From: Gemmiger sp. An194
Lineage (GTDB): Bacteria > Bacillota > Clostridia > Oscillospirales > Ruminococcaceae
DNA length: 64,000 nt
Assembly (NCBI RefSeq): GCF_002160145.1
Contig: NZ_NFKA01000001.1
Span: forward strand, 207,226-271,225
Direction of reading: 5' to 3'
Shown: positions 10,734 through 41,777 of the stretch, piece by piece
How the letters are laid out: each line of letters starts with the position of its first letter
Numbering within the stretch: the first letter of the stretch is position 1
Made by a program: the position numbers and the translations under genes
The notes under the pieces: generated by a model
Database searches by the model: none
What the model was told of the DNA's origin: nothing
Seen by the model: only the letters and a program-made list of their open reading frames with translations

Positions 10734-10753
10734 AGCCGGAAGGAGGGGCCTGA

Positions 10754-11956: not shown

Positions 11957-13149
11957 GAAGGGCAAAACAGTTGCTGGCATCGGCGCTGGTACTGCTGCTT
12001 ATAGCGGGCTGCGGGCAGCGGACCGAATCCGCGCCCCCTGTGGCTTCGGCAGAGCCGGAGCAGGCGGAAGAGACCCGGTTGGAGGGCTGGCTTTTTCCCT
12101 GGGATGGACAGCGGTATTACACCGGCCAAAATGAGGTGTGTGATACTGCCGATATGACCACCCGCCCCCTCTCCCTGACCATGGGGCCATGGGAACATCT
12201 GACCGGCTATCCGGTCGCCGACGGCAGATTTTTGTACTACTCCACCTCGGATACCCAGTATGCGCCTGACCTGAGCGAACAGGTGTGGCGCTGCAATCCG
12301 GACGGCAGCGGCGCAAAAATGATCTGGAAGAGCGAGACGGGCGGGGAGGGGCTGCTGGAAAATGCGCGCCTGGGCGGCCAGGTGACGGATGCAGCCCGCA
12401 TGGTGGCCTTTGCGCAGCAGGATGCGGTCTGGTTCTTTTACCGGGGAGACAATATCTTTTCCAGCCCGGAGGTGTACCGCTGCGGCGTGGAGGAAGCCTC
12501 TGCCCGCCGGGTGGAATACCCGGACTCGCTTCCCTGCGGCATATTCACCGGCGAAATGAACGGGCAGCCGGTGTTCTGTGGGCTGCGGAATGAGGACCGG
12601 GAGTACTTTTTCTGGCTGCTGGATCTTGCCACCGGTGAAACCCGCGAGCTTTTCACCCTGCCGGATACCACCGGGTATCTCAGTCTGGTTCAGGACGGCA
12701 TGCTGTATTTTCAGGATCAGGAATCGGCAAGCCTGTATGAAGTGGACCTGTCCATCGGAAAGCAGCGGCTGGTGTGGCAGCAGGAGCAAAAACCGGCGAC
12801 GATCGCCTGGGTGCAGTTCATCGGGGACGGGTACGCCCTTTTGGAAAACACCAGCCTTCCCATGCTGGCCTGTTCACTGGACCTGGCGGACGGCAGCATC
12901 ACTGAGGCAACACTGCGGGGAATGAATGAAAGCAGCGGCGAGGAGTATGTGCTGCATGCGCTGGCCCCGCTGGGAAACTGCTACGTGGTGGAGTGCCGGC
13001 ATCACACCGGTATTCGAGCTGGTATGAGCCTAGCGGGCGAACCGCAGCAGAAGCGGTATTTTTGGGGAGACTATGCTCTCATCGAGAAAGAGGACTACTG
13101 GAACAACGTGCCGGAATATCGCCCCTTTACCTGGGTAGATGATGGATGA
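11953..13149 (+). CDS. Lipoprotein, possible beta-propeller, paralogue 2
   Basis: A 398-residue lipoprotein with lipobox IAGC (cysteine about residue 19). Repeated units such as CNPDGSGAKMI, LDLATGETREL, VDLSIGKQRLV and LDLADGSITEA resemble propeller blades. The C-terminal EDYWNNVPEYRPF mirrors the end of the preceding lipoprotein. The start overlaps the previous stop as ATGA. It is the last gene of the two-component operon; no clear terminator follows before the next promoter. Substrate or partner unknown. Confidence 0.75.
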   Translation: MRRAKQLLASALVLLLIAGCGQRTESAPPVASAEPEQAEETRLEGWLFPWDGQRYYTGQNEVCDTADMTTRPLSLTMGPWEHLTGYPVADGRFLYYSTSDTQYAPDLSEQVWRCNPDGSGAKMIWKSETGGEGLLENARLGGQVTDAARMVAFAQQDAVWFFYRGDNIFSSPEVYRCGVEEASARRVEYPDSLPCGIFTGEMNGQPVFCGLRNEDREYFFWLLDLATGETRELFTLPDTTGYLSLVQDGMLYFQDQESASLYEVDLSIGKQRLVWQQEQKPATIAWVQFIGDGYALLENTSLPMLACSLDLADGSITEATLRGMNESSGEEYVLHALAPLGNCYVVECRHHTGIRAGMSLAGEPQQKRYFWGDYALIEKEDYWNNVPEYRPFTWVDDG

Positions 13150-13232: not shown

Positions 13233-13883
13233 ATGAACAGAAAACACATTGTATGCTACGGCGATTCCAACACCTGGGGCTACTGCGCCGCCACCGGCGG
13301 CCGCTATGAGGACGACGTGCGCTGGACCCGTCTTTTGCAGGAGCAGCTGGGCGATGGGTATCTGGTGGCGGAGGAAGGGATGTGCGGCCGCACCACTGTG
13401 TTTGAGGACCCGCTGAACGAAGGCCTCTGCGGCTTTGCACACCTGGCCCCGGCGCTGAACGCTCACAGTCCGCTGGACCTCTTGGTGGTGATGCTGGGCA
13501 CCAACGACTGCAAGCAGCGTTATTCCGCCACTGCCCAGAACATTGCCGACGGGCTGGCCCGTCTGGTGACCCGGGCAAAGCAGCTGCCGGTGTGGGCAGG
13601 CGAACCCAGGGTGCTGATCGTGGCGCCCATCATGATCGATCCCCGGGTACATCAGGTGCCCCGCATAGGCCAGGAGATGGGCGAGGGCTGCGTGGAAAAA
13701 TCCCGCCTGCTGCCCGCTCTGATGGAGCAGACCGCCCGGGATACCGGCTGCGAATTCATGGACTGCAACCCCTACGTGCAGCCGGGCGAGGCGGACTGGA
13801 TGCACTTTGACGCGGCCAGCCAGGCCCGCTTTGCGCTGGCGCTGGAGGCCAAGATCCGGGTGCTGCTCAGCGGCCGGAGCTGA
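13233..13883 (+). CDS. SGNH/GDSL-type esterase
   Basis: A 216-residue cytoplasmic hydrolase without signal peptide. Block I CYGDSNTWG holds the catalytic serine (about S12), the glycine block lies near GMCGRTT, block III is LGTNDCK (oxyanion asparagine), and block V is DWMHFD with the catalytic D and H. This arrangement matches SGNH acyl-esterases that deacylate carbohydrates or short esters; the exact substrate cannot be read. Own promoter upstream; a long hairpin that could act as terminator follows and reaches into the leader of the ZIP gene. Confidence 0.9.
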   Translation: MNRKHIVCYGDSNTWGYCAATGGRYEDDVRWTRLLQEQLGDGYLVAEEGMCGRTTVFEDPLNEGLCGFAHLAPALNAHSPLDLLVVMLGTNDCKQRYSATAQNIADGLARLVTRAKQLPVWAGEPRVLIVAPIMIDPRVHQVPRIGQEMGEGCVEKSRLLPALMEQTARDTGCEFMDCNPYVQPGEADWMHFDAASQARFALALEAKIRVLLSGRS

Positions 13884-26015: not shown

Positions 26016-26870
26016 TTACAGATGGCGGATGGCCAGTGCGTTTGCGGTCAAGTCCTTGTTGCGCATGGTGGTGTCCATATCCCGGCGGCAGAACTCGTTC
26101 ACCAGCATATCCACCACGAACAGCATGGCCATCTTGGCTGCGATGCTACCGGTCTGCAGCGGACGCTCGTGCCCGCCGCACAGCAGCACCACATCCGCCA
26201 TACCGGCGGCGGGGGAGTCGGCGTAGTGGGTGATCAGCACGATCTTGGCACCCCGGGCTTTGGCGGGCCGGAGCACATCCTCCGCGTCCCGGGTGGAGCC
26301 GGAATAGGAGACGAACAGGATCACATCGTTTTCCTCCAGCAGGCTGGCGGCCATGATCTGCATGTGATTGTCCTCAATGACGAAGAACTTGGAGGTCACG
26401 GTGAGAAAGCGGCTCCAGGCCTCCCGCACGGTGGCCATACTGCCGCCGTAGCCCAGGCCCAGAATCTTGCCCGCGCCTGCCAGCAGATCGCCCGCTTTGA
26501 TGAGGGCTGCCTCGTCCAGCAGCGAAAGCGTCTGGTTCAGCGCCTGGATATTTGACTCGTACAGCCGGCGGCACATGGCCTCCACCGTGTTGTCCTCCGG
26601 GGTGAGTTCACCGTAGGCCGCGTAGGGGTTGGGCTGATTCAGTATACTGGATTTCGCCAATGCCAGCTTGAATTCGTTGTATCCCCCGAAACCCAGCTGC
26701 TTGCAGAACCGGAAGATGGTGGCTTCGGCTACTCCGCATTCATTGGCCAGCCCTGAGATGGAAAGATATTGCGCCTGGGCGCAGTGCTCAAGCAGATAGT
26801 CTGCGATCTTCCGGGAAGAGGGGGTGAACTGATCGTAGTGGGTATTGATTTGATACATAAGGTCTAACAT
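26016..26870 (-). CDS. RpiR/MurR-family transcriptional regulator of the sialic acid island
   Basis: A 284-residue regulator: N-terminal RpiR helix-turn-helix (about 1-77; VAEATIFRFCKQLGFGGYNEFK is the recognition part) and a C-terminal SIS domain (about 125-255) that in this family binds phosphorylated sugars such as ManNAc-6-P or GlcNAc-6-P. It is divergent from the first importer operon, and a palindrome close to the sites in the two importer promoters lies about 40 bases before its start, so it probably autoregulates and represses the island until a sialic-acid-derived sugar binds. The effector is not readable from sequence. Confidence 0.92.
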   Translation of the reverse strand: MLDLMYQINTHYDQFTPSSRKIADYLLEHCAQAQYLSISGLANECGVAEATIFRFCKQLGFGGYNEFKLALAKSSILNQPNPYAAYGELTPEDNTVEAMCRRLYESNIQALNQTLSLLDEAALIKAGDLLAGAGKILGLGYGGSMATVREAWSRFLTVTSKFFVIEDNHMQIMAASLLEENDVILFVSYSGSTRDAEDVLRPAKARGAKIVLITHYADSPAAGMADVVLLCGGHERPLQTGSIAAKMAMLFVVDMLVNEFCRRDMDTTMRNKDLTANALAIRHL

Positions 26871-27211: not shown

Positions 27212-28558
27212 ATGAAAAAAGCGTTAGCACTTGTTATGGCCGGCGCAATGGCGCTGTCCATGGTGGCTTGCGGCGGCAGCACCAGCACCAGCACCGCCAC
27301 CTCTGGTTCCACTGCAGCGAGCACCGGCACCAGCACCGCTTCCGGCGCTGCTACCGAGATCACCCTGTGGACCTATCCCATCGGCTCCTGGCAGAAGGAG
27401 GAGACCGTGAACGGCTTCATCGCCGAGTTCAACAAGCAGTACCCCGACATCAAGGTCAACGTGGAGTACCTGGACTACACCAACGGCGACGATAAGGTGA
27501 CCACCGCCATCGAAGCCAAGAACACCCCCGACATCATCTTCGAGGGTCCCGAGCGTCTGGTATCCAATTGGGGCGCCAAGGGCCTGATGGTTGATCTGAG
27601 CGACCTGTGGACCGAAGAGGCCACCGCCGACATCAGCAAGACCAGCGAGGCTGTTGTGAACGCCTGCAAGGGCGCCGACGGCAAGTACTATGAGTACCCC
27701 ATGTGCATGACCGCTCACAACATGGCCATCAACTACGAGCTGTTCGAGGAGACCGGCGCTCTGCAGTACATTGATCAGGAGACCCGTACCTGGACCACCG
27801 ATAACTTCGTGAAGGCTCTGGAGACCCTGCGCGACAGCGGCAAGGTTATGACCCCCGCCATCGTTTACTGCGGCGGCCAGGGCGGCGACCAGGGCACCCG
27901 CGCTCTGGTGAACAACCTGTACAGCGGCACCTACACCACCGCTGATCACACCGCTTACACTGCCAACAGCGCCGAGAACGTAAAGGCTCTGGAGCTGCTG
28001 CAGAAGCTGAACAGTGAGAAGGCTCTGACCTTCGACCCCGCTATGCAGGCTTCCGACGAGCTGCAGATGTTCGCCAACGGCACTGCTGCCATGACCTTCT
28101 GCTGGAACGCTTCCAACGAGGCTACCTACGCTGAGCAGGTCACCTTCACCCCCTACGCCATGAACTTCCCCACCGATGACGGCAAGGTTGAGCTGTGCGG
28201 CGGTATCTGGGGCTTCGGCATCTTCAACAACGGCGACGAGGCCAAGATCGAGGCTGCCAAGACCTTCATCAAGTTCATCTGTGACGACGCTACCCAGGGT
28301 CCCGCCAGCGTGCAGGCCACCGGCTTCTTCCCCGTTCGTGCTTCCTTCGGCAATGTTTACGCCGGCACCGAGAACGAGGAGCGCATGGCTACCTTCCAGA
28401 CCTTCCTGCCCAACATGGGTGACTACTACAACGTGACCGGCGGCTGGACCGAGCAGCGCACTGCTTGGTGGAACATGCTGCAGGAAGTTGGCAACGGCAG
28501 CGACGTTCAGGCTGCTGCTGACAAGTTCGTTGAGACCTCCAACGCCGCCATCGGCTAA
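27212..28558 (+). CDS. ABC importer solute-binding lipoprotein, CUT1 sugar type
   Basis: A 448-residue family-1 extracellular solute-binding protein. Lipoprotein signal with lipobox MVAC (cysteine about 21), then a Ser/Thr/Gly/Ala-rich linker to about residue 50, and the usual two-lobed fold beginning EITLWTYPIGSW. Very strong ribosome site AAGGAGGAG. Position beside a NanA-type lyase and an AGE-type epimerase under a shared operator makes sialic acid or a derivative (for example 2,7-anhydro-Neu5Ac) the likely ligand; compare the SAT2-type carriers of Streptococcus and Ruminococcus gnavus. Ligand is inference. Confidence 0.9.
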   Translation: MKKALALVMAGAMALSMVACGGSTSTSTATSGSTAASTGTSTASGAATEITLWTYPIGSWQKEETVNGFIAEFNKQYPDIKVNVEYLDYTNGDDKVTTAIEAKNTPDIIFEGPERLVSNWGAKGLMVDLSDLWTEEATADISKTSEAVVNACKGADGKYYEYPMCMTAHNMAINYELFEETGALQYIDQETRTWTTDNFVKALETLRDSGKVMTPAIVYCGGQGGDQGTRALVNNLYSGTYTTADHTAYTANSAENVKALELLQKLNSEKALTFDPAMQASDELQMFANGTAAMTFCWNASNEATYAEQVTFTPYAMNFPTDDGKVELCGGIWGFGIFNNGDEAKIEAAKTFIKFICDDATQGPASVQATGFFPVRASFGNVYAGTENEERMATFQTFLPNMGDYYNVTGGWTEQRTAWWNMLQEVGNGSDVQAAADKFVETSNAAIG

Positions 28559-28721: not shown

Positions 28722-29666
28722 TTGACTACATCTGCCGCTAAGCAGCCTGTAAAAGGACCCAGCAAACGCTCCGGTCTTGGCATCAGCCGGGCGGAGGCAC
28801 GCCGCGAGACCCTTGCGGCCTACCTTTTCCTGCTGCCGTTTCTGATCGTTTTCGTTGGTTTTGTTCTGATCCCCATGGTCATGTGCCTGTGGACGAGCTT
28901 CTTCGATTCCACCATGGCCCGTGAGGACATTTTCGTTGGTTTTGGCAACTACATCAAGATGTTTCAGGACGAGATCTTCTGGAAGGCCTTGATGAATACC
29001 GCACTGATCGTGGTGGTGGCTGTGCCCACTGTTACCGCGTTCTCCCTGTGGGTGGCTTCGGCCATTTATAAAATGAAGTCGGCTTCGTGCTCCTTCTTCC
29101 GCTGCATCTTCTACCTGCCTGTTGTAACCGGTACCGTGGCCGTTACCGTGGTGTGGAAGTGGATGTTCAACAACTACTACGGCATCATCAACTATGTGGC
29201 CAAGGGCGTTGGCGTGATCGACAACAACGTGAACTGGCTGGGTAACACCCAGACCGCCATCTGGTGTATCATCCTGATCCTGTTCACCACCAGCATTGGC
29301 CAGCCCATCGTGCTGTACGTTTCCGCTCTGGGCAATGTGGATGCCAGCCTGACTGAGGCCGCGCAGGTGGACGGCGCCACCAAGCTGCAGACCTTCTGGA
29401 AGATCATGTGGCCCCAGATCACTCCCACCACCCTGTACATTCTGGTCATCACCACCATCAACAGCTTCCAGTGTTTCGCGCTGATCCAGCTGCTGACCAG
29501 CGGCGGACCCAACAACTCCACCAACACCATCATGTACTACATCTACTACAAGGCATTCAAGCTGTATGAATACGGCTACGGCAACGCCATGGGCGTGATT
29601 CTGGCCATCATCATCGCTTTGCTGTCTGCTTTGCAGTTCAAGGTAGCCGGCAAGGGCAACGATTAA
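28722..29666 (+). CDS. ABC importer permease, CUT1 type (UgpA/LacF-like)
   Basis: A 314-residue inner-membrane permease with six helices. N-terminus is cytoplasmic and basic; the EAA loop that contacts the ATPase reads EAAQVDGATKLQTFWKIMWP (about residues 208-227). TTG start at 28722 with a GAGAGGAGAGG ribosome site. Partner of the next gene; together they form the channel for the upstream binding protein. Confidence 0.93.
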   Translation: MTTSAAKQPVKGPSKRSGLGISRAEARRETLAAYLFLLPFLIVFVGFVLIPMVMCLWTSFFDSTMAREDIFVGFGNYIKMFQDEIFWKALMNTALIVVVAVPTVTAFSLWVASAIYKMKSASCSFFRCIFYLPVVTGTVAVTVVWKWMFNNYYGIINYVAKGVGVIDNNVNWLGNTQTAIWCIILILFTTSIGQPIVLYVSALGNVDASLTEAAQVDGATKLQTFWKIMWPQITPTTLYILVITTINSFQCFALIQLLTSGGPNNSTNTIMYYIYYKAFKLYEYGYGNAMGVILAIIIALLSALQFKVAGKGND

Positions 29667-29679
29667 GGAGGCATAGAAG

Positions 29680-30513
29680 ATGAAGACTGTGACTGGTAAA
29701 ATGACTCCTTACAAGGTCTTTTCCGGCATCATCCTTGCCGTTCTGACCGTGTTCCTGGTGTTTCCCCTGTACTGGATCTTCACCGGTTCTGTGAAGACTG
29801 CAGCGGACATCAACACCCCCACTCCCCAGTGGTTCCCCACCAACCCCACTCTGGCCAACTACGAGAAGCTGTTTGACAACCCGGCTCTGCTGTGGCTGTG
29901 GAACACCATCTTCATCGCTGTGGTCGCCATGATCCTGACCTGCATCACCGCCGCTATGGCCGGTTATGTTCTGGCCAAGAAGAAATTCTACGGCCGCACC
30001 GTGATCTTCAGCCTGATCGTCTGCGCCATGGCGCTGCCCAAGCAGGTTATCCTGATCCCCCTGCTGAAGGAGATGTCCTTCCTGGGCATCCACGATACTC
30101 TGTGGGCCGTGATTCTGCCCACCGTGGGCTGGCCCTTCGGCGTGTTCCTGATGAAGCAGTTCAGCGAAGGCATCCCCAACGAGATGCTGGAGGCCGCCCG
30201 CATTGACGGTGCCGGTGAAGTGCGTACCTTCGTGCAGATCATCCTGCCCATGGTCAAGCCCGGCATCGGCGCGCTGGCCATCTTCACCTTCATCACCGCC
30301 TGGAACGATTACTTCATGCAGTTGATCATGCTGACCAAGAACACCAGCCTGACCATCTCGCTGGGTATCGCGAACCTGCAGGCCGAAATGGCCACCGACT
30401 TCGGCCTGATCATGGCCGGTGCTGCGGTTGCCGCCATTCCCATCCTGGCCGTGTTCCTGATGTTCCAGAAGTACTTCACGCAGGGCATCACCATGGGTGC
30501 TGTGAAGGGCTGA
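29680..30513 (+). CDS. ABC importer permease, CUT1 type (UgpE/MalG-like)
   Basis: A 277-residue permease with six helices. EAA loop EAARIDGAGEVRTFVQIILP (about 169-188). GGAGG ribosome site, 13 bases after the first permease. No ATPase gene follows, so this carrier presumably uses a shared MsmX/UgpC-type ATPase encoded elsewhere, a known arrangement in Gram-positive CUT1 systems. Confidence 0.93.
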   Translation: MKTVTGKMTPYKVFSGIILAVLTVFLVFPLYWIFTGSVKTAADINTPTPQWFPTNPTLANYEKLFDNPALLWLWNTIFIAVVAMILTCITAAMAGYVLAKKKFYGRTVIFSLIVCAMALPKQVILIPLLKEMSFLGIHDTLWAVILPTVGWPFGVFLMKQFSEGIPNEMLEAARIDGAGEVRTFVQIILPMVKPGIGALAIFTFITAWNDYFMQLIMLTKNTSLTISLGIANLQAEMATDFGLIMAGAAVAAIPILAVFLMFQKYFTQGITMGAVKG

Positions 30514-30620: not shown

Positions 30621-31091
30621 ATGATTTATGATAATTTCAGCAATCTGAGCGCCTACAAGGGCCTTTCCAAGGGACTGGACAAGGTGATCGAATGGGCCAA
30701 GACCCATAAGGTGGAGGAGCTGCCCCTGGGCCGCACTGAGATCGACGGCAGCCGGGTATTTGTGAACGTGATGGAGGCGGATACCCGCCCGGAGGAGGGC
30801 GCACACTACGAGGTGCACCGCAAATACATTGACCTGCAGATGGATCTGGAGGGCAGCGAGGACATTCTGGTGTCCAGCTGCTACACCCCGGATGCAAACG
30901 GCTTTGATGACGCGGCGGACATCGGCTTCGGCGATGGCCCTCTGGGGAACCGGAGCCGTCTGGGAGATGGTATGTTCGCCTTGTTCCTGGCGGGTGAGTC
31001 CCACATGCCCACCGTGAGCAACGGCAGCTGCACCCATGTGAAGAAAGCTGTGTTCAAAATCTTGAGCAACGAATACTACGACGAAGTCTGA
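30621..31091 (+). CDS. YhcH/YjgK/YiaL (DUF386) protein, sialic acid mutarotase-like, copy 1
   Basis: A 156-residue cupin-fold protein of the DUF386 family. Family marks: ELPLGRTEIDG near residue 35, then HYEVHRKYIDLQ (metal-binding His/Glu region, about 62-73) and a C-terminal HVKKAVFKI. E. coli YhcH (NanQ) of this family opens or mutarotates sialic acid forms. It closes the first importer transcript and differs clearly in sequence from the second copy at 38925, suggesting each copy handles the sugar form delivered by its own transporter. AAAGGAGGA ribosome site. Confidence 0.88.
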   Translation: MIYDNFSNLSAYKGLSKGLDKVIEWAKTHKVEELPLGRTEIDGSRVFVNVMEADTRPEEGAHYEVHRKYIDLQMDLEGSEDILVSSCYTPDANGFDDAADIGFGDGPLGNRSRLGDGMFALFLAGESHMPTVSNGSCTHVKKAVFKILSNEYYDEV

Positions 31092-31470: not shown

Positions 31471-31598
31471 AAGAGTACAGCAAGGGGTGCACGAAGGCAC
31501 ACCTTGTTCCAAGGGAAATGGAGCCCCTTGGCTCTGATGCATATGTGTTGTGAAGCGATCGGAGAAGGGACTCTCGATTTTTGAAGGAGGCAAAAAAC

Positions 31599-33197
31599 AT
31601 GAAGAAAGTTCTTGCACTTGTTCTCGCAGCTGCCATGGCACTTTCTATGGTAGCCTGCGGCGGTGGCTCGACCACCAGCGGTTCCACCGCCACCAGCGGT
31701 GCATCCAGCGCCGGCACTGCCGCTCCCGCAAGCGACGGCACCCTGAAGCTGGTCCTGTCCACCACCGACGGCAGCAGCACCGACGACAAGGTTCCCACCC
31801 CCTGGTACAACCGCACCCTGCCCACCAACCTGATGTTCCGCAGCCTGTTCATTGCGGACAGCACCCTGAACGAGGTAAGCCCTGACCTGGCCGAGAGCTA
31901 TGAGGTCAGCGAGGACGGCCTGACCTACACCATCACCCTGAAGGACGGCCTGAAGTGGAGCGATGGCGAGGCCCTGACCGCCGACGATGTGCTGTGGTCC
32001 ATCGACGCTGCCCTGCAGACCACCCAGGTGAACGCCATTTACACCTCCGCGTTCAAGAAGATCGCCGAGAAGAGCGCTGAAGGCAATGTGATCACCCTGA
32101 CCCTGAGCGAGCCCTACAGCTCCCTGCCTCAGATCCTGAGCCAGTTCGCCATCCTGCCCAAGCACAGCCTGGAGAACGTGGATGTTCTGAAGCTGGATGC
32201 CGACACCACCTTCTGGCAGAACCCCGTGACCAACGGCTATTACATGGTTGGCGAGTTCAACGTGGGCAACTACTTCACCATGGTTCCCAACCCCAACTAT
32301 GAAGGCACTCCTGCCAAGATCCAGAAGGTCACCGTTTCCTACGTGAACGACTACCTGACCGCTGCCCAGTCCGGCAATGCCGACTACCTGTACGGCAATG
32401 CCACCGACCTGGTAGAGGCCATGGAGGGCATGAGCAACTACACCTCTCACGAGGTTGACGTACTGTTCTACAAGTACTTCATCTTCAACATGAAGGGCAC
32501 CGACGGCACCGAGAACGCGGCCATGCAGAACGTTGAGGTCCGCAAGGCCATCATGGAAGCCATCGACCGCGCTACTCTGGCTACCCTGTATCCCAGCGCT
32601 ACCGTGCTGAACTCCGGCGTGCCCGATTCTCACCCCGCTTACAACGGCTTCAGCTACACCTTCGACGCTGAGAAGGCCAAGGCCGATATCGCCGCTTCCG
32701 GCTACGATATGAGCCGTCCCATCCGCATCTGCTACTACAACAACGATCAGACCAGCATCGACCTGATCAACACCATCGTTTACTACCTGGAGCAGGCTGG
32801 CCTGACTGTTGAGTCCACCCTGTCCAACGACGGCACCACCGATCTGTTCACCACCCGCCAGTACGACATCGGCTTCAAGGGCAAGAGCTCTTTCTCCCTG
32901 GACGAGTGGTACAGCGAGTACCTGAGCACCGACGCTCTGTTCCAGAACATCTGGGGCGGCGACACCGCCTTTGACGAGGCCATCGCCACCTACTCTGCCG
33001 CCACCACCGAGGAAGAGAAGAACGCTGCTCTGAAGACCCTGCAGGATCTGGAGCAGGAGAAGCTGTACAAGGTTCCCCTGTTCACCGTTGGTAACTACGT
33101 GTTCACCAGCAGCAACGTGAAGATTCCCGAGGGCGTTACCTTCTGCAACCCCCTGTACAGCTGCGATCTGGATTTCGCCAACTGGGAGATGGCCTGA
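31599..33197 (+). CDS. ABC importer solute-binding lipoprotein, peptide/nickel family 5
   Basis: A 532-residue family-5 binding protein (DppA/OppA fold). Lipoprotein signal with lipobox MVAC (cysteine about 21) and a Ser/Thr/Gly/Ala linker. Family hallmarks: LAESYEVSEDGLTYTITLKDGLKWSDGE region (about 90-117) and VRKAIMEAIDRATLA. ATG at 31599 follows GAAGGAGG; an in-frame TTG further up overlaps that ribosome site and is rejected. Operon context with nanA-like and epimerase genes suggests a sialic acid ligand, as for the peptide-type SatABCD carrier of Haemophilus ducreyi. Ligand is inference. Confidence 0.9.
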   Translation: MKKVLALVLAAAMALSMVACGGGSTTSGSTATSGASSAGTAAPASDGTLKLVLSTTDGSSTDDKVPTPWYNRTLPTNLMFRSLFIADSTLNEVSPDLAESYEVSEDGLTYTITLKDGLKWSDGEALTADDVLWSIDAALQTTQVNAIYTSAFKKIAEKSAEGNVITLTLSEPYSSLPQILSQFAILPKHSLENVDVLKLDADTTFWQNPVTNGYYMVGEFNVGNYFTMVPNPNYEGTPAKIQKVTVSYVNDYLTAAQSGNADYLYGNATDLVEAMEGMSNYTSHEVDVLFYKYFIFNMKGTDGTENAAMQNVEVRKAIMEAIDRATLATLYPSATVLNSGVPDSHPAYNGFSYTFDAEKAKADIAASGYDMSRPIRICYYNNDQTSIDLINTIVYYLEQAGLTVESTLSNDGTTDLFTTRQYDIGFKGKSSFSLDEWYSEYLSTDALFQNIWGGDTAFDEAIATYSAATTEEEKNAALKTLQDLEQEKLYKVPLFTVGNYVFTSSNVKIPEGVTFCNPLYSCDLDFANWEMA

Positions 33198-33351: not shown

Positions 33352-34314
33352 ATGCTAAAGTTCATTCTCAAAAAGCTTCTTCTGATGATCCCGATGCTGC
33401 TCGTCATCAGCCTGATCGTGTTCTTCGGCCTGCAGGCGACCGGCATCGACCCCATCAACTTCATGCTCAGCCCAGAACAGCTTTCCGCCAGCCCCGAGGT
33501 GGTGGAGCAGCTGCGTGAGGAGCTGGGCCTGAACGATCCCCTGATTGTTCAGTACTTCAACTGGCTGGGCAACATGCTGCACGGTGACTTCGGTTATTCC
33601 ATCACCGACGGTACCTCCATCGCCAGCACCCTGGCCGTCCGTATGCCTTACACCCTGGAGCTGGCCGGTTACTCTCTGGTGCTGTCCGCCATCATCGGTA
33701 TCGGCATCGGTATTATTTCCGCCATCCGCCAGAACGGCATCATCGACTACATCGGCCGCGTGCTGGCTGTTCTGGGCCAGGCGGTTCCCCAGTTCCTGGT
33801 TGGCATCATCCTGATCCAGATCTTCTCTATCAAGCTGGGCATCTTCCCGGCGGCGAACCGGGTGAGCCCGGACGCCACCAACGCCTTTGTGGACGCCTTC
33901 ATGCACCTGTTCCTGCCGGTGACCACCCTGACCATCGGCATGGTGGCGGTTCTGATGCGCTACGCCCGCAACACCATGCTGGACGTGCTGAACAGCGACT
34001 ACATCAAGACCGCCCGCAGCAAGGGCATCCCCGAGTGGAAGGTTTACTTAAAGCACGGCTTCCGCAACGCAATGAAGCCGGTTCTGGTTATCCTGATGTT
34101 CCGTATTCCCACCCTGATCGGCGGTTCCGTGGTTGTTGAGAGCGTGTTCTCTTACCCCGGCATCGGCATGACCATGACCAACGCCATCGTGGCCAACGAC
34201 TACAACGTGGTTATGGTCACCACCCTGATTATCGCCGCCACCATGCTAGTGTGCTCCTTCATGGTGGACGTGCTGAACGCCATCATGGACCCGCGCGTAC
34301 GCCTGGGCGAATAA
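33352..34314 (+). CDS. ABC importer permease, DppB/OppB type
   Basis: A 320-residue permease with six helices and the DppB-type periplasmic loop (ELGLNDPLIVQYFNWL). EAA-like loop near ARSKGIPEWKVYLKHGFRNA. ATG at 33352 is preceded by GGAGTGAGAA; an upstream in-frame TTG lacks a ribosome site. First of the two channel subunits of the peptide-type importer. Confidence 0.94.
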   Translation: MLKFILKKLLLMIPMLLVISLIVFFGLQATGIDPINFMLSPEQLSASPEVVEQLREELGLNDPLIVQYFNWLGNMLHGDFGYSITDGTSIASTLAVRMPYTLELAGYSLVLSAIIGIGIGIISAIRQNGIIDYIGRVLAVLGQAVPQFLVGIILIQIFSIKLGIFPAANRVSPDATNAFVDAFMHLFLPVTTLTIGMVAVLMRYARNTMLDVLNSDYIKTARSKGIPEWKVYLKHGFRNAMKPVLVILMFRIPTLIGGSVVVESVFSYPGIGMTMTNAIVANDYNVVMVTTLIIAATMLVCSFMVDVLNAIMDPRVRLGE

Positions 34315-34333: not shown

Positions 34334-35227
34334 ATGAGCAATCCCAATGCAGCAAGCATCAAGGAACAAAACAAAAGCGCAGCCTCCTCGTTGCTGAAAA
34401 AGAATATCCGCAAATTTTTGAACAATAAGCTGGCTGTGTTCGGTCTGGTGGTCGTTGTTGTGATGACCCTGGCCTGCATCATCGGCGCCATTATGGGCGT
34501 GGACTACGCCACCCCCGACCTGACCAACATGAAGGCTGCCCCTGAGGCCGGTCACATCTTCGGCACCGACACCATCGGCCGTGACCTGCTGGCCCGCGTG
34601 CTGATCGGCGGCTGCTATTCCATCCTGATCGGCGTGTTCTGCGCCGTGCTCAGCAGTGTGATCGGCGCGGCGCTGGGCGCCATCGCCGGTTACTTCGGCG
34701 GCTGGGTGGACAGCGTGATCGTGCGTATCTCCGAGATCTTCCAGGCCTTCCCCCAGCTGGTTCTGGTCATGATGCTGGTGGCCATCCTCAACCAGCGCGG
34801 TCTGGGCAACCTGCTGTTCATCTTCGTGGTCACCGGCTGGATGACCACCTTCCGTATGGTGCGCAACGAGTTCATGAGCCTGAAGAACGAGACCTACGTT
34901 AAGGTCTGCGAGGCCTTCGGCATGAAGCGCAGCAACATCATGTTCAAGCAGATCCTGCCCAACGTGATGAGCCCCATCATCGTTTCCACCACCACCAACG
35001 TGGCGTTCTTCATCCTGCAGGAGGCCTCCCTGAGCTTCATCGGCCTGGGCGTTGCCGACAGCACCCCCACCTGGGGCAACATCCTGAACGCTGCAAAGTC
35101 TGTTTCCGTGGTTACCAACCAGTGGTGGATCTGGGTATTCCCCGGTCTTGCCATCAGCCTGTTCGTTCTGGCCATCAACTTCTTCGGCGACGGCCTGCGG
35201 GACGTTCTGGACCCGAAACAGCAGTAA
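34334..35227 (+). CDS. ABC importer permease, DppC/OppC type
   Basis: A 297-residue permease with the OppC N-terminal cytoplasmic tail, six helices, and the family blocks HIFGTDTIGRDLLARVL and QEASLSFIGLG. EAA loop near CEAFGMKRSNIMFKQILPNV. GAGGAGGAG ribosome site; 19 bases after the DppB-type gene. Second channel subunit. Confidence 0.95.
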   Translation: MSNPNAASIKEQNKSAASSLLKKNIRKFLNNKLAVFGLVVVVVMTLACIIGAIMGVDYATPDLTNMKAAPEAGHIFGTDTIGRDLLARVLIGGCYSILIGVFCAVLSSVIGAALGAIAGYFGGWVDSVIVRISEIFQAFPQLVLVMMLVAILNQRGLGNLLFIFVVTGWMTTFRMVRNEFMSLKNETYVKVCEAFGMKRSNIMFKQILPNVMSPIIVSTTTNVAFFILQEASLSFIGLGVADSTPTWGNILNAAKSVSVVTNQWWIWVFPGLAISLFVLAINFFGDGLRDVLDPKQQ

Positions 35228-35239
35228 GGAGGCGGCAGT

Positions 35240-36265
35240 ATGGATACAAAAGAGATCATCTTAGACGTAAAAAATCTGAATACCACCTTTATTTCCGACC
35301 GCAAGGAGATCCGGATCGTAAAGAACGTTTCCTTCCAGTTGAAGCGCGGCACCGCGCTGGCGGTTGTGGGTGAGTCCGGCTGCGGCAAGAGCGTGACCAT
35401 GAACTCCATCATGCGCTTCCTGGGCAAGAACGCCCGGGTCGAGGCGGACAGCATCCAGTACAACGCTTTGCGGGACGGCAAGGTGACCGAGTATCATCTG
35501 GAAAAGATCAAGGACCCCAACGGCCCTGAGATGCGCGCCCTGCGCGGCCCGGATATGTCCATGGTGTTCCAGGACCCCATGTCCAGCCTGAACCCGGTTT
35601 ACAAGGTGGGTGACCAGGTGGCTGAGGGCCTGATCCAGCACACCGGCATGAAGAAGAAGGAAGCCCGTGTGAAGGTTCTGGAGATGTTCCGCAAGCTGGG
35701 CATCCCCGATCCTGAGGAGCGCATCGACAGCTATCCCCATCAGTTCTCCGGCGGCATGAAGCAGCGCGTGGTCATCGCTATTGCCATGATCTGCAACCCG
35801 GAGCTGATCATCTGCGACGAGCCCACCACCGCGCTGGATGTGACCATCCAGGCGCAGATCATGGAGCTGCTCAAGGACCTGCAGGTGAAGGAAGGCAAGT
35901 CCATCGTGCTGATTACCCATAACATGGGCCTGGTGGCCGAGATGGCCGACGAGGTCTGCGTCATGTACATGGGCCGCGTGGTGGAATTCGGCAGCCTGGA
36001 GGATGTGTTCGACCGCACCTCCCACCCCTACACCAAGGCGCTGCTGCGCAGCGTGCCCGTGCTGGGCCTGGCCGACGGCCAGAAGCTGGAGACCATTCCC
36101 GGCTCCACTCCCAACCCGGCCAACCTGAAGCCCGGCTGTGAGTTCGCGGACCGCTGCCCCGAATGCACCGCCGCCTGCCGTGAAAAGGATATCCCGACCT
36201 TCGAGATCAGCCCCGGCCACCGGGTTCGCTGCTTGAAGTATAAGAACTTCCCGGAGGTGGACTGA
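35240..36265 (+). CDS. ABC importer ATPase, DppD/OppD type
   Basis: A 341-residue ATPase: Walker [11 protein letters not shown] (about residues 44-53), Q loop [12 protein letters not shown], signature FSGGMKQR, Walker [13 protein letters not shown], and the OppD-type C-terminal cysteine cluster ([14 protein letters not shown]) that binds iron-sulfur in some members. AAGGAGG ribosome site, 12 bases after the permease. Pairs with the next gene to power the importer. Confidence 0.95.
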
Positions 36266-36267
36266 TC

Positions 36268-37278
36268 ATGAGCGAAAATCGTGAAGTTATCTTTAAGATT
36301 GAAAACCTGAAGACCTGGTTCCCCATCACCAAGGGCGCCTTCAAGAAGGTCGTGGGCCATGTAAAGGCTGTGGACGACGTGAGCCTGGAGGTGTACAAGG
36401 GCGAGACCCTGGGCATCGTGGGTGAGTCCGGCTGCGGCAAGTCCACCTTCGGCAAGACCATCATGATGCTGGAGAAGCCCACCGGCGGCAAGGTGCTGTT
36501 CAACTACGGCGGCGAGTTCAAGGACGTGACCAAGTTCAACAAGGAGGAAATGTTCCAGTTCCGCCGCAAGGTGCAGATGGTGTTCCAGGACCCCTATTCC
36601 GCCCTGAACCCCCAGAAGAAGATCTACACCTCTTTCGAGGAGCCCCTGAAGGTCCATGGTGTAAAGAACGAGGCGGACCGGGAGGCCGTGATGCAGAAGG
36701 TGCTGAAGATGGTCAACATCCAGCCCGACTACCTGATGCGTTATCCCCACGAGTTCTCCGGCGGCCAGCGCCAGCGCCTGTGCATTGCCCGCGCGCTGGA
36801 GGTTATGCCCGAGGTTCTGGTGTGTGACGAGCCCGTTTCCGCACTGGACGTGTCCATTCAGGCCCAGGTTTTGAACCTGATGAAGGATATCCAGAAGGAA
36901 ATGAACCTGACCTACCTGTTCATCGCCCACGATCTGAGCGTTGTGCAGTACATGTCCGACCGCATCGTGGTTATGTACCTGGGCAAGATCGTGGAGATCG
37001 CCGACAGCCGCGCGCTGTACGACGAGCCCCTGCATCCCTACACCCAGGCGCTGCTGAGCGCCATTCCTGTGCCTGACATCCACAAGACCAAGAAGCGTCA
37101 GGTGCTGGAGGGCGAGGTGCCCAGCCCCATCCACAAGCCCAGCGGCTGTGCCTTCCACAACCGCTGCCCCAAGTGCATGGAGATCTGCAAGACCGTGGAC
37201 CCTGCTATGGTACACCACGGTGCAGAGGGCCACATGGTCGCCTGCCATCTGTACGACAAAGAGGCGGCGAAGGCCTGA
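36268..37278 (+). CDS. ABC importer ATPase, DppF/OppF type
   Basis: A 336-residue ATPase: Walker [12 protein letters not shown] loop [12 protein letters not shown], signature FSGGQRQR, Walker [13 protein letters not shown], and a C-terminal [14 protein letters not shown] cluster. Starts two bases after the previous stop. Completes a five-gene importer, unlike the first importer, which lacks an ATPase. Confidence 0.95.
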
Positions 37279-37280
37279 TT

Positions 37281-38918
37281 ATGCGGCTGGAATATACAAG
37301 GCACTGTGATGTGCTGGTGGCCGGCTCGGGAATTGCCGGGATCATGGCGGCCCTTGCCGCGGCAGGGGCCGGCCGCTCGGTGATCCTGGCAAGCAGCGGC
37401 CCGGTGTTTTCCGGTTCCAGCTTCTACCCTGGAACCTGGGGCCTCGGGCTGATCGGGCCGGAAAACGAAGCTGACCGGGAGGATCTGGTCCAGAGTATCC
37501 TGGAGGTGGGCTGCGGCATGGCGGACGAAACCATGGTCCGCGCCTTTGTGGCGGGCATCGGCCCGGCCATCGAGGGCGTAAAGGCCATGGGTGTTCAGCT
37601 GAAGGCTGCAGCCGACCAGAATCAAAAGGATTTCATCCCTTGTTTCGACCGCAAGCATCGCAGCTGGAACGGCCTGCTGTTCGACAGCATGCGTCAGGTC
37701 TTCTCCCGTAAAATGGAGGAGACCGGCGTACAGCAGCTGCCCGGCTGCGAGCTGCTGCAGCTGATCAAAACCGGCGAGCGGGTGAGCGGTGCGGTGATCT
37801 GCCAGAAAGGCGAATTGACCGCCATTCGGTGCGGCGCGCTGGTGCTGGCCACCGGCGGCTACGGCGGATTGTTCCGGGACCGGCTCACCACCGACGATGT
37901 GGCAGGCACCGGCCAGTGGCTGGCGCTGGAGGCTGGGGCGGAGCTGGTGAACCTGGAGTTTATGCAGATGATGCCCGGTTACCTGACTCCCTGCCGAAAA
38001 ACAATCTTTAACGAGAAGACCTTCCGCTATACCCGCTTGACAGGACCGGACGGAAGGGATATTCTGGAGAACGAACCGGACCGGCAGGCTCTTCTGGAGT
38101 GCCGGTCCACCCACGGCCCCTTCACCAACCGCCTTGCCTCCAAACGGGTGGATCTGGCCATGGTGAAGGCCACCCAGGCTGCGCCGGAGCAGGGGGTCAC
38201 CGTGACCTACGGACCCGAGATCCGGCAGGATACGCCGGAATTCGTGCGAACTTATTTCGACTGGCTCTGGGAGAAAAAGCATCTGACCATGGATGACCCG
38301 GTGCAGATCGCCCCCTTTGCCCATGCGGCAAACGGCGGTGTGCGCATCGATGCTTCCGGCTTTACCGGAGTGCCCGGGCTGTTTGCCTGCGGTGAGGTGA
38401 CCGGCGGCATGCATGGTGCAGACCGGATCGGCGGGCTTTCCACCGCCAACGGCCTGGTGTTCGGCAAAAAAGCAGGCGAGAGTGCCGCGGCCTTTGCGGC
38501 GGCTCAGCCTGCGGCCGAAACGGACGAGCCGGTGGAGTTCGAGGCACGGATCATTCCGGACCAGGCCGAGCGCCGCCGCCGGATGCAGGATGTGATGAGC
38601 GAATGCGGTATGGTGGTGCGCAGTGACGAGGCACTGGCCCGGGGCATCGAGCGTCTGGATCAGCTGACCGATGGCTGTGAATTTACCAGCGGCACCGACG
38701 CGGCACAGATCGCGGCCAGCCGCCGCCTGTGGGCCCAGCTGCATCTGGCCCGGGCGATCCTGAGCGTCCAGCGCATGCGCACCGAGAGCCGGGGTTCCCA
38801 TTATCGGGCGGATTACCCGGAACGGGACCCGGCGTTGGAAAAGCGCATTCTGGTGCGGATGCAGGGCGGTACGGCCCAGGCTGCTTTTGAGCAAAAACCT
38901 TGCAGAAAAGAGGTTTGA
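37281..38918 (+). CDS. FAD-binding oxidoreductase, fumarate reductase/aspartate oxidase fold, unknown substrate
   Basis: A 545-residue soluble flavoprotein. FAD contacts: GSGIAG (about 15-20), LATGGYGGLF in the middle, and GLFACGEVTGGMHGADRIGG plus LSTANGLVFGKKAG near the end. The overall order matches FrdA/NadB. However, the substrate motif QFHPT of those enzymes reads QMMPGY, and the arginine block after it is not conserved, while the later HYTxGG appears as HAANGG. It is therefore not a normal fumarate reductase or aspartate oxidase. It starts two bases after the ATPase stop and is followed at six bases by a DUF386 gene, so it is firmly part of the sialic acid transcript. Role unknown; perhaps oxidation or reduction of a sialic acid derivative. 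Confidence 0.85.
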   Translation: MRLEYTRHCDVLVAGSGIAGIMAALAAAGAGRSVILASSGPVFSGSSFYPGTWGLGLIGPENEADREDLVQSILEVGCGMADETMVRAFVAGIGPAIEGVKAMGVQLKAAADQNQKDFIPCFDRKHRSWNGLLFDSMRQVFSRKMEETGVQQLPGCELLQLIKTGERVSGAVICQKGELTAIRCGALVLATGGYGGLFRDRLTTDDVAGTGQWLALEAGAELVNLEFMQMMPGYLTPCRKTIFNEKTFRYTRLTGPDGRDILENEPDRQALLECRSTHGPFTNRLASKRVDLAMVKATQAAPEQGVTVTYGPEIRQDTPEFVRTYFDWLWEKKHLTMDDPVQIAPFAHAANGGVRIDASGFTGVPGLFACGEVTGGMHGADRIGGLSTANGLVFGKKAGESAAAFAAAQPAAETDEPVEFEARIIPDQAERRRRMQDVMSECGMVVRSDEALARGIERLDQLTDGCEFTSGTDAAQIAASRRLWAQLHLARAILSVQRMRTESRGSHYRADYPERDPALEKRILVRMQGGTAQAAFEQKPCRKEV

Positions 38919-38924
38919 AGTACA

Positions 38925-39374
38925 ATGATCTATACCAATTACCAGCAGATGGAGCGTTATCTGGGCGTGAGCGACGCGCTGGATACCGCCATCCACTATC
39001 TGAAAACGGCCGACCTGAGCCAGTTGCAGTTCGGCCGCAACGATGTGGACGGCGACAACGTTTACATCAACCGTTTTGATTACGACACGCTGCCGCTGGA
39101 CAAGGCCGCCTGGGAGGGACACGCCCAGTACGCCGACATCCACGTGCTGCTCAGCGGCGAGGAGAAGATCGGCGTGACCGATGTCTCCCGCCTGACGGCC
39201 ACCACCCGGGATGAGGCCACTGATTTCATTGGCTACGAGGGCCCGGTGGAGACCTGGTTCACCATGCACCCCGGCGATGTTCTGGTGGTTTTCCCCGAGG
39301 ACGTTCATATGGTGAAGGTGCAGCTGAACGGCGAGGCACATGTGCAGAAAGCTGTGTTTAAAGTGCGGGCTTAA
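38925..39374 (+). CDS. YhcH/YjgK/YiaL (DUF386) protein, sialic acid mutarotase-like, copy 2
   Basis: A 149-residue DUF386 protein: LQFGRNDVDGDNVYINRF, WEGHAQYADIHVLLSGEE (metal-binding His/Glu region) and a C-terminal VVFPEDVHMVKVQLNG...VQKAVFKV. It keeps the PEDVHM block that copy 1 lacks, so copy 2 is closer to the canonical YhcH/NanQ. Six bases after the flavoprotein. Proposed to interconvert or open sialic acid ring forms before the lyase. Confidence 0.9.
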   Translation: MIYTNYQQMERYLGVSDALDTAIHYLKTADLSQLQFGRNDVDGDNVYINRFDYDTLPLDKAAWEGHAQYADIHVLLSGEEKIGVTDVSRLTATTRDEATDFIGYEGPVETWFTMHPGDVLVVFPEDVHMVKVQLNGEAHVQKAVFKVRA

Positions 39375-39390
39375 ACCGCAGTTTAAATAA

Positions 39391-39485
39391 GGCAATGCCG
39401 CACAATTCCAGGTGGTGGAGCATGCCGGAAAATTTTGGCGTGAAACGCTGCCTGAGGCGTTCGCTGTGGATTGCGCAGTGTTGCC
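39391..39485. repeat. 95-bp element with imperfect terminal inverted repeats (MITE-like)
   Basis: Begins GGCAATGCCGCACAATTCC and ends GGATTGCGCAGTGTTGCC, imperfect inverted repeats of about 18 bases, flanked on both sides by ATAA (39387-39390, 39486-39489), which looks like a 4-base target duplication. It fills the gap between the DUF386 and lyase genes. No other copy was seen in this window, so it could instead be a folded intercistronic RNA. Confidence 0.45.
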
Positions 39486-39540
39486 ATAAGTCTTTGCGGA
39501 CGAATTTTTAGGTGTATTTCCAAAAAAGGAGAGGAAAAAC

Positions 39541-40458
39541 ATGAAAGACATTTCCAAGTACCAGGGCATTATTCCCGCGTTTTACGCTTGCTACGACGAC
39601 GAAGGCAACATCAGCGTGGAGCGCACCAAAGAACTGACCCGTTACTTTATCAAGAAGGGCGTTAAGGGCGTATACGTTTGCGGTTCCTCCGGCGAGTGCA
39701 TTTATCAGAGCAAGGAAGAACGCAAGCAGACCCTGGAGGCTGTGATGAGCGAGGCCAAGGGCAAGCTGACCGTGATCGCCCACGTTGCCTGCAACAACAC
39801 CGCCGACAGCATGGAGCTGGCTGCTCATGCCGAGAGCCTGGGCGTTGACGCCATCGCCTCCATTCCTCCCATCTACTTCAAGCTGCCCGAGCACGCCATC
39901 GCTCAGTACTGGAACGACATTTCCTCCGCCGCTCCCAACACCGATTTCGTGATCTACAACATCCCGCAGCTGGCCGGCGTGGCCCTGACCATGCCCCTGT
40001 TCCGCGAGATGCGCAAGAACCCCCGCGTTGCCGCTGTGAAGAACAGCAGCATGCCCGTACAGGACATCCAGATGTTCAAGATGGAAGGCGGCCCGGACTT
40101 CGTTGTATTCAACGGTCCCGACGAGCAGTTCATCTCTGGCCGTGCCATGGGCGCTGACGGCGGCATCGGCGGTACCTACGCTGTAATGCCCGAGCTGCTG
40201 CTGAAGGCTGACGAGCTGCTGAAGGCCGGCAAGGTCAAGGAAGCTGCCGCGGTTCAGTACGCCATCGACGCCATCATCTACGCCATGTGCGCCTGCAAGG
40301 GCAACCTGTACGCTGTGATGAAGGAGATTCTGCGCATCCGTGAGAATCTGGACATCGGCGGCGTTCGCAAGCCCCTGCCCAACCTGTTCCCCGAGGATAT
40401 GGAGCAGGTCAAGAAGTGCGCCAAGATGATCGACGAGGCCATTGCCAAGTTCTGCTGA
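39541..40458 (+). CDS. nanA: N-acetylneuraminate lyase (DapA superfamily)
   Basis: Cleaves N-acetylneuraminic acid to ManNAc and pyruvate through a Schiff base. The 305-residue TIM barrel has GSSGE (48-52), the catalytic tyrosine Y139 in IYNIP and the Schiff-base lysine K167 in AVKNSS, and a GGIGGTY block near residue 205 close to the NAL-type sugar-binding region. NAL rather than DapA is favoured by the YNIP and sugar-side residues and by the adjacent epimerase; some doubt remains because the superfamily is broad. AAAGGAGAGG ribosome site. Confidence 0.88.
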   Translation: MKDISKYQGIIPAFYACYDDEGNISVERTKELTRYFIKKGVKGVYVCGSSGECIYQSKEERKQTLEAVMSEAKGKLTVIAHVACNNTADSMELAAHAESLGVDAIASIPPIYFKLPEHAIAQYWNDISSAAPNTDFVIYNIPQLAGVALTMPLFREMRKNPRVAAVKNSSMPVQDIQMFKMEGGPDFVVFNGPDEQFISGRAMGADGGIGGTYAVMPELLLKADELLKAGKVKEAAAVQYAIDAIIYAMCACKGNLYAVMKEILRIRENLDIGGVRKPLPNLFPEDMEQVKKCAKMIDEAIAKFC

Positions 40459-40565: not shown

Positions 40566-41777
40566 ATGGATAAGCATGCAGAGCAATTGAAAGAGTATCA
40601 GAAGTGGGTTCGCGAGGAGCTGGAGCGCAGCGTGAACTTCTGGCTGAAGAACGGCATGGACCACGAGCACGGCGGCGTTTACACCTGCCTGGATCGTACC
40701 GGCAAGCTGTTCAGCACCGACAAGAGCGTCTGGTTCCAGGGCCGCTGCGCCTGGACCTTCTCCTACCTGTGCCACGTGTATGGCAAGAAGCAGGAGTGGC
40801 TGGACGCCGCCAAGAGCTGCCTGGACTTCATGGAGAAATACTGCATCAACCGGGAAGCCGGCGACCGCATGTACTTCACCGTGACCGCCGACGGCAAGCC
40901 CCTGCGTCAGCGCCGTTACTGCTTCTCCGAGGGCTTCTACGCCATCGCCAACGCCGAGTACTACGGCGTGACCGGTGAGAAGGAGTGCATCGAGCGCGCC
41001 CGCCGTGCCTACGAGCTGATCTATCAGCTGAACAACGGCCTGATTAAGGACCCCACCGGCATGGGCCCCAAGACCATTCCCGAGACCCGCACCGGCCGCG
41101 CTCTGGCCGATCCCATGATCTACCTGAACATCACCGCCGTGATGCGCCGCTGCGACCCCGAGAACACCGCGCTGTATGAAGCCCGTGCCAAGGAGTGCTG
41201 CGAGACCATCTTCAAGTACCACTTCAAGCCCGAGCTGAAGTGCACTCTGGAGAGTGTTGGCCCCAACGGCGAGCTGCAGATGGACTACACCGCCGGCCGT
41301 GTGGTCAACCCCGGCCATGACATCGAGTGCAGCTGGTTCGTGATGGAGCAGGCCAAGCACACCGGCGACGAGGAGCTGCGCAAGAAGGCCCAGACCCTGT
41401 TCGACTACGCCTACGAGGGCGGCTGGGACAAGGAGTACGGCGGCCTGCTGTACTTCATCGACTGCAAGGGCCTGCCCCCGGAGGCTTACGAGCATGACAT
41501 GAAGCTGTGGTGGCCTCACAACGAGCTGCTCATCGCCAGCATGATGATCTACCGCGACACCCAGGACGAGAAATACCTGAAGATCTTCGACGAGACCCTG
41601 GAGTACTGCAAGAAGGTGTTCAGCGATCCCGAGTACGGCGACTGGTACGGCTACCTGCGACGCGACGGCAAGCCCACCGAGCCTGCCTGCAAGGGCTCCA
41701 CCTTCAAGGGCCCCTTCCATCTGCCCCGCTGCCTGATGATGGTGGATCAGCTGATCGACGAGATCCTGGCCCGCTGA
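40566..41777 (+). CDS. N-acylglucosamine 2-epimerase (AGE family)
   Basis: Interconverts ManNAc and GlcNAc. The 403 residues have the (alpha/alpha)6-barrel family blocks: MDHEHGGVYTCLDRTGK, WFQGRCAWTFSYL, GHDIECSWFV and LWWPHNELLIA with the conserved histidines. ATG at 40566 is preceded by AAGGAGTTG. With the upstream lyase this gives the AGE-type route (as in Bacteroides NanLET) ending in GlcNAc, instead of the kinase-first NanK/NanE route; no kinase or NanE gene is present here. Last gene of the sialic acid transcript. Confidence 0.93.
   Translation: MDKHAEQLKEYQKWVREELERSVNFWLKNGMDHEHGGVYTCLDRTGKLFSTDKSVWFQGRCAWTFSYLCHVYGKKQEWLDAAKSCLDFMEKYCINREAGDRMYFTVTADGKPLRQRRYCFSEGFYAIANAEYYGVTGEKECIERARRAYELIYQLNNGLIKDPTGMGPKTIPETRTGRALADPMIYLNITAVMRRCDPENTALYEARAKECCETIFKYHFKPELKCTLESVGPNGELQMDYTAGRVVNPGHDIECSWFVMEQAKHTGDEELRKKAQTLFDYAYEGGWDKEYGGLLYFIDCKGLPPEAYEHDMKLWWPHNELLIASMMIYRDTQDEKYLKIFDETLEYCKKVFSDPEYGDWYGYLRRDGKPTEPACKGSTFKGPFHLPRCLMMVDQLIDEILAR

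Follow-up and report, generated by a model that had tools for sequence, protein, structure and literature searches.

We analysed a stretch of 64,000 nucleotides from contig NZ_NFKA01000001.1 of Gemmiger sp. An194 (hereafter, the window), with attention to FRD, a gene for a flavoprotein of the FrdA/NadB superfamily. FRD is located in an operon with the gene order SBP5, two permeases, two ATPases, FRD, DUF386, nanA and AGE. All components of a locus for sialic acid catabolism (nan locus), i.e. nanA, an epimerase gene for N-acetylmannosamine/N-acetylglucosamine and a transporter, are thus present in one cluster. The stop of the second ATPase gene, ATPF (at 37278), is separated by 2 bases from the FRD start, and the FRD end is separated by 6 bases from the start of DUF386 (38925). 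The original prediction, made from the sequence alone, had placed a fumarate-reductase-like gene between ATPase and DUF386 genes with the same gaps, and the open reading frame (ORF) coordinates and Pfam matches agree with it; the neighbours it had listed (ATPase, DUF386, nanA and AGE) also agree with the Pfam matches and with the scores to structures 6rab and 8bry. An 823-aa ORF on the reverse strand (37098-39569) spans the whole FRD gene in antisense and was not treated as a gene.

The FRD product matches PF00890 at residues 10-387 (124.8 bits) and PF02910 at residues 432-525 (50.2 bits); the structural model predicts a full-length FrdA/NadB fold. It is a single chain beginning at the flavin adenine dinucleotide (FAD) domain, with PF02910 at its end, and its Pfam matches include neither a cytochrome domain nor a flavin mononucleotide (FMN) domain. 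The best 25 of the 47 NCBIfam matches were to NadB, FrdA/SdhA, TfrA and flavocytochrome c models. None of these 25 was at its cut-off; the top score was 195.7 versus 639 bits (NF005867), and the L-aspartate oxidase model TIGR00551 gave 162.1 bits with a cut-off of 452.75. Clear orthology to a characterized enzyme of another pathway, an outcome that the original prediction had named as contrary to its proposal, was therefore not observed, as no family cut-off was reached among the NCBIfam matches shown. By sequence, the nearest solved structure is NadB (115 bits).

In FrdA and SdhA the FAD is linked to a histidine near the N-terminus. The translation of FRD has no histidine between residues 9 and 120; hence, no His-linked FAD is expected there. 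Among the neighbours of FRD in the window we found no gene for an iron-sulphur partner of the FrdB/SdhB type. Elsewhere in the genome one PF13085 match was above the cut-off (35 versus 27 bits); it covers model positions 21-90 within an 860-aa open frame and is a partner candidate at most. A second PF13085 match was below the cut-off.

For comparison of active sites we used E. coli NadB, in which we take H244 and E121 to be substrate residues, H351 and R386 to form a carboxylate clamp and R290 to be the catalytic arginine; the positions come from alignments. In the phmmer alignment H244, the histidine of the QFHPT block, corresponds to M231 of FRD and T246 to G233; R290, H351 and R386 correspond to R284, H348 and R382. 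In the MAFFT alignment E121 corresponds to C121, and R290 is shifted by one residue, onto N283, because of a one-residue length difference. The alignment of the FRD family has 30 rows (29 distinct, with L020 and L042 from a single genome), among them two near-identical pairs, L026/L037 and L035/L036. R284, H348 and R382 are identical in all 30 rows, and both H244 and E121 are replaced in all 30 (MAFFT); the 101 invariant positions include C121, W129, M231, R275, R284, Y310, W328, H348 and R382. Judged by these aligned residues, FRD keeps one half of the site for fumarate, made up of a single carboxylate clamp together with the catalytic arginine.

The change of QFHPT to QMMPGY, as read in the original prediction, is confirmed by the NadB alignment; the loss of the following arginine block, also claimed there, proved to be wrong, since NadB R290, H351 and R386 all have their counterparts. 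The expectation that FRD uses neither fumarate nor aspartate is likely to hold, given the loss of H244 and E121, but not for the reason stated, as the catalytic arginine and the clamp are kept.

The distribution of FRD was determined at several taxonomic levels, with its own genome included. Of the seven genomes in the genus, five matched the window FRD at E <= 1e-40; at E <= 1e-60 the matching genomes were five each in the family (of 197) and the order (of 394), and six in the class (of 391). Two of the family-level matches (36-37% identity) and four of the class-level matches (32-37%) are distant relatives. A scan of named genomes gave 25 FRD loci with 42-94% identity, including loci from Oscillospiraceae, Lachnospiraceae, Clostridiaceae, one spirochaete metagenome-assembled genome (MAG) and five Eggerthellaceae; among the carriers are Fournierella massiliensis DSM 100451, Gemmiger sp. 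An50 and An87, and [Clostridium] citroniae WAL-17108. We refer to proteins with 42% identity or more as the FRD family proper and count 30 distinct loci (the window, L015-L041, L043 and L081; L042 was left out as a duplicate of L020). Synteny was counted by tblastn, because ORF calls in GC-rich loci included some antisense frames; gene absences are weak observations at L026, L030, L031, L033, L037, L038 and L039, where contig ends cut the flanks.

We observed the full set SBP5-permB-permC-ATPD-ATPF upstream of FRD in 25 of the 30 loci; the five loci with no Opp-type set are those of Eggerthellaceae (L026-L029, L037). In the transporter-linked loci ATPF was the nearest same-strand upstream gene found, except at L022, L025 and L081, where it was a NanA gene located after ATPF. 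Within ∼10 kb of FRD we found genes for NanA (18 of 30 loci), DUF386 (16), RpiR (13), ROK (12), NanE (9), SBP1 (9), AXE1 (8), GDSL (7), AGE (6), BD-FAE (3) and NanOx (1), as well as a Gfo/Idh gene of the kind seen at L021 (4). The frequent presence of esterases (PF05448, GDSL and BD-FAE) suggests that O-acylated forms of sialic acid may also be handled at FRD loci.

The gene nanA was present in the genomes of all 25 transporter-linked FRD carriers, versus 42 of the 391 genomes of the class (E <= 1e-40). With the class genomes minus the own genome and G835 as the background, the Fisher test gave p ∼8e-23 (25/25 versus 40/389), and with the five Eggerthellaceae included (25/30) p ∼5e-18; both values are only a rough guide, because these loci are interrelated and were collected through similarity searches. 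The original prediction had called for a neighbourhood survey and had named homologues scattered without nan genes as the adverse result. The survey found linkage in 25 loci, with nanA in all 25 genomes, and scatter in the five Eggerthellaceae, so that the adverse result was seen in part only. The undescribed redox step proposed there gains support, through this linkage, at the level of the pathway but not at that of the substrate. We conclude that a role of FRD in the sialic acid pathway is well supported and that its chemistry is not.

The linkage extends over divergent partners. Trees of ATPF and of permB each have, besides outgroups, two groups on long branches, one with 10 rows (the duplicate L020/L042 among them) and one with 16. 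In the FRD tree, which has long branches elsewhere, a supported clade (95/91) unites L043 and L041, from the first transporter group, with L019, L021 and L040 from the second. Pairwise identities between L041 and L040 are 67% for FRD, 29% for SBP5 and 52% for ATPF; between L041 and the window they are 56% for FRD and 88% for ATPF. Therefore, FRD and the transporter have swapped partners, although the pairing as such was kept. NanA also occurs in two lineages with this family: the window type and a type that passes the N-acetylneuraminate lyase cut-off of NF003164 (283 versus 281 bits), with TIGR00683 not passed. One flavoprotein family thus goes with two lineages each of NanA and of the Opp-type transporter, the latter two being divergent.

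Features of the window around FRD (positions in the window)
Feature	Positions	Strand	Evidence and remarks
FRD, FrdA/NadB-superfamily flavoprotein, 545 aa	37281..38918	+	ATG start; Pfam, alignments, predicted fold
ATPF, Opp-type ABC ATPase	36268..37278	+	Pfam; 2 bases upstream of FRD
ATPD, Opp-type ABC ATPase	35240..36265	+	Pfam
permC, Opp-type permease	34334..35227	+	role read from position in the set and from sequence
permB, Opp-type permease	33352..34314	+	PF00528 and PF19300
SBP5, family-5 solute-binding protein	31596..33197	+	PF00496
DUF386/YhcH-like gene	38925..39374	+	PF04074; N-acetylneuraminate anomerase model 82.5 of 160 bits, below cut-off
Second DUF386/YhcH-like gene	30621..31091	+	anomerase model 99.2 of 160 bits
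nanA, N-acetylneuraminate lyase	39541..40458	+	472 bits to solved 6rab ('Putative N-acetylneuraminate lyase'); below NCBIfam nanA cut-offs
AGE-type N-acylglucosamine 2-epimerase	40566..41777	+	300 bits to 8bry; below NCBIfam cut-off
SBP1, family-1 solute-binding protein of second transporter	27212..28558	+	Pfam; 268 bits to 9rsi
Two MalFG-type permease ORFs after SBP1	28722-29666 and 29680-30513	+	type assigned by visual inspection
Presumed RpiR-type regulator ORF, divergent from second transporter	26016..26870	-	type read from the sequence

The scores of SBP1 to six PDB entries that share the name 'Sugar ABC transporter, sugar-binding protein' (9rsi and others) were 260-268 bits. An ORF ∼23 kb from FRD (13233-13883, forward strand) has 45% identity to a GDSL-type esterase that adjoins FRD in Lachnospiraceae loci, and had no NCBIfam match at 1e-10. 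In Anaerobium acetethylicum (L023) the gene next after FRD (11771-12559) is of the glucosamine-6-phosphate isomerase family (PF01182), which fits amino-sugar catabolism.

The window genome had no match to NanOx, the known oxidoreductase of sialic acid salvage, and none to a BNR_2 sialidase. A search for NanOx in 26 FRD genomes gave five matches at E <= 1e-60, four with at least 65% identity and the fifth with 39%. A second search, of nine FRD genomes, gave none; judged by contig coordinates, five of these (G025, G137, G418, G568 and G569) had already been counted and four were new. The second search had no positive of its own, and its query was the one that matched in the first. In total, NanOx at 65% identity or more is present in 4 of 30 FRD genomes and absent from 26. 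At L033 a NanOx orthologue (596 bits to 6z3c) adjoins a separate family-1 transporter. The idea of FRD as a simple substitute for NanOx was rejected, as the four genomes carry both. Gfo/Idh genes follow FRD at L019 (13586-14710), L021 (13500-14624), L040 (14610-15722) and L041 (7946-9055), the last being closest to the glucuronide-3-dehydrogenase 8tdi (227 bits); a further redox step is possible at these loci. We recognized no gene for a redox partner of FRD among the annotated neighbours.

The FRD genes of Eggerthellaceae (L026-L029 and L037, near 10001-11701) keep all invariant residues of the family, and the best nanA-like matches in these five genomes have 25-27% identity only. As both the gene set and a close nanA are missing there, sialic-acid users are not the only carriers of the activity. 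The relatives with 31-37% identity have diverse surroundings: divergent Opp genes (L044), SGNH-like ORFs, read by eye (L045), an HpaI-like aldolase below the cut-off (L085) and a weak Gfo/Idh match (L084). L083 together with L088 (contig 23 of G800) has Opp genes, a DUF386-like gene and two aldolase-family genes. ORFs resembling short-chain dehydrogenases and a BNR protein were also seen there by eye, with no NCBIfam match; the cluster is perhaps another sugar-acid pathway. The flanks of L082 show none of the Opp, SGNH-like, DUF386-like, aldolase or Gfo/Idh genes. R284 is absent in L044 and L045. A link to sugar-acid catabolism seems to be common to these relatives and would agree with the carboxylate clamp.

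Our preferred reading, which we put forward tentatively, is that FRD converts a dehydrated sialic acid imported by the transporter, most probably Neu5Ac2en, to N-acetylneuraminic acid (Neu5Ac), with FAD recycled in the active site. Neu5Ac2en is the known form of sialic acid with a C=C bond conjugated to the carboxylate; we favour it as the substrate since this is the feature on which reductases of the superfamily act. The Opp-type transporter would deliver the modified form to the cell; its C1 carboxylate may be held by the H348/R382 clamp, with C2/C3 under flavin N5 and with R284 as a proton donor or acceptor. FAD would be recycled within the active site and the product, Neu5Ac, would go to NanA. 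The net step might be either a hydration, redox-neutral as that of NanOx/YjhC with nicotinamide adenine dinucleotide (NAD), or a reduction. As a chemical model for hydrating Neu5Ac2en we considered 2-haloacrylate hydratase, which depends on FADH2. A recycled FAD would need no partner, in keeping with an operon that has no redox partner. In its most far-reaching form the reading becomes a flavin-based second salvage route, in which an enzyme of the fumarate reductase fold, with one carboxylate clamp and the catalytic arginine kept, would use FAD and no redox partner to make Neu5Ac from Neu5Ac2en (or an anhydro form); in Bacillota and a spirochaete it would have become linked with Opp-type transporters of two divergent lineages. 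We regard this as possible, if rather doubtful.

Several observations weigh against the conversion of Neu5Ac2en to Neu5Ac. Seven transporter-linked loci (L019, L020, L021, L023, L035, L036 and L041) have no nanA nearby, their genomes having it elsewhere with 70-73% identity (45% for L023). By the usual chemistry of the superfamily Neu5Ac2en would be reduced, and NanA should be unable to cleave the resulting 2-deoxy sugar acid. AXE1 and GDSL esterases, at 8 and 7 of the 30 loci, point to O-acylated substrates that need no flavin. FRD and NanOx occur together in four genomes and once in the same locus (L033); Eggerthellaceae, with no close nanA, would seem to have no use for Neu5Ac as a product. 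These two observations, on the genomes with both FRD and NanOx and on the Eggerthellaceae genes, are the chief ones that the Neu5Ac2en hypothesis leaves unexplained.

FRD might instead carry out a net oxidation or reduction of some other imported sialic acid (O-acylated, N-glycolyl or a bacterial nonulosonic acid), with electrons passing to a soluble carrier. This possibility, which is also a tentative one, draws on the same Opp and nan linkage counts; SBP1 and SBP5 transporters in the operon region of the window suggest two cargoes, and the same esterase counts and the Gfo/Idh genes after FRD at four loci, with the 8tdi-like copy at L041, are in its favour. Yet no redox partner was recognized among the annotated neighbours, and O-acyl forms pose no obvious redox need. 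The resemblance of the half-site to urocanate reductase brings up a cytosolic ene-reductase that would use Neu5Ac2en or another unsaturated sugar acid as an electron sink, with a product bypassing NanA. Such an enzyme would account for FRD in Eggerthellaceae, but the tight operon linkage to NanA and epimerases favours a step that feeds this pathway, and Pfam shows no cytochrome or FMN domain; we consider it unlikely.

It is similarly improbable that FRD acts on a general sugar acid taken up by the same transporter family, the sialic acid genes being one of several contexts. The five Eggerthellaceae members with no nan genes nearby would agree with this, as would the relatives beside an HpaI-like aldolase (L085) or beside Opp, DUF386-like and two aldolase-family genes (L083 with L088); on the other hand, nanA is present in all 25 transporter-linked genomes of the family proper. 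That an L-aspartate oxidase or a fumarate reductase is located here by chance is very improbable: NadB is the top match among solved structures (115 bits), but H244 and E121 are replaced in every row, the scores are far under the NadB and FrdA cut-offs and the nan linkage is conserved. FRD as NadB or FrdA was rejected on residues and NCBIfam cut-offs.

By title and abstract, the open-licence literature searched for sialic acid together with flavoproteins showed no flavin step of the FRD kind in sialic acid catabolism. In selected papers, a search for the words FAD, flavo and flavin found only the regulator fadR. Fold and locus type are known; the role of FRD is not described in the literature searched. 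The conserved tie between FRD and the transporter, seen in 25 of the 30 loci and both in Bacillota and in one spirochaete MAG, means that current maps may lack a step of the pathway or a sialic acid form that these bacteria use. The linkage gives a named gene, named strains and precise residues for further work, and a redox-neutral step, if true, would be unusual chemistry for the fumarate reductase fold.

Compared with known systems, FRD differs from NadB (1chu, 1knp and 5kxj) in the replacement of H244, T246 and E121, in scores below the NCBIfam cut-offs and in its linkage to nan genes. With FrdA (1kf6 and 5vpn) it shares the predicted fold, the FrdA/SdhA combination of PF00890 and PF02910, the carboxylate clamp, the catalytic arginine and the C-terminal motif RxESRGxH; it differs in having no His-linked FAD within residues 9-120, no adjoining FrdB gene and a changed second carboxylate site. 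The urocanate reductase UrdA (6t86 and 6t87), compared here through its published description, keeps the carboxyl-binding residues and Arg411, has the C1-carboxylate histidine replaced by tyrosine and shows no fumarate activity in the wild type (PMC7921117). FRD is alike in this logic, with clamp and catalytic arginine kept and the C1-carboxylate histidine replaced. UrdA is described as having a signal peptide and, at its N-terminus, a domain that bears FMN (PMC7921117), whereas FRD is a single chain from the FAD domain with no Pfam match to an FMN domain.

NanOx and YjhC (6z3c and 6o15) are alike in the proposed job, the recovery of Neu5Ac from dehydrated sialic acids in nan loci. In a scheme given as tentative by its authors, YjhC hydrates Neu5Ac2en through a 4-keto intermediate with recycled NAD (PMC7315737). 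These enzymes have the Gfo/Idh fold with NAD, whereas FRD is of the FrdA type by Pfam and predicted fold; both kinds are present in 4 of 30 FRD genomes. ST3 is a sialic acid ABC transporter of the SBP_bac_5 type known in nan clusters (PMC8754123). The window differs from it in having a flavoprotein gene directly after the transporter, whose cargo is putative, and resembles it in combining a family-5 binding protein and an ABC transporter within a nan locus.
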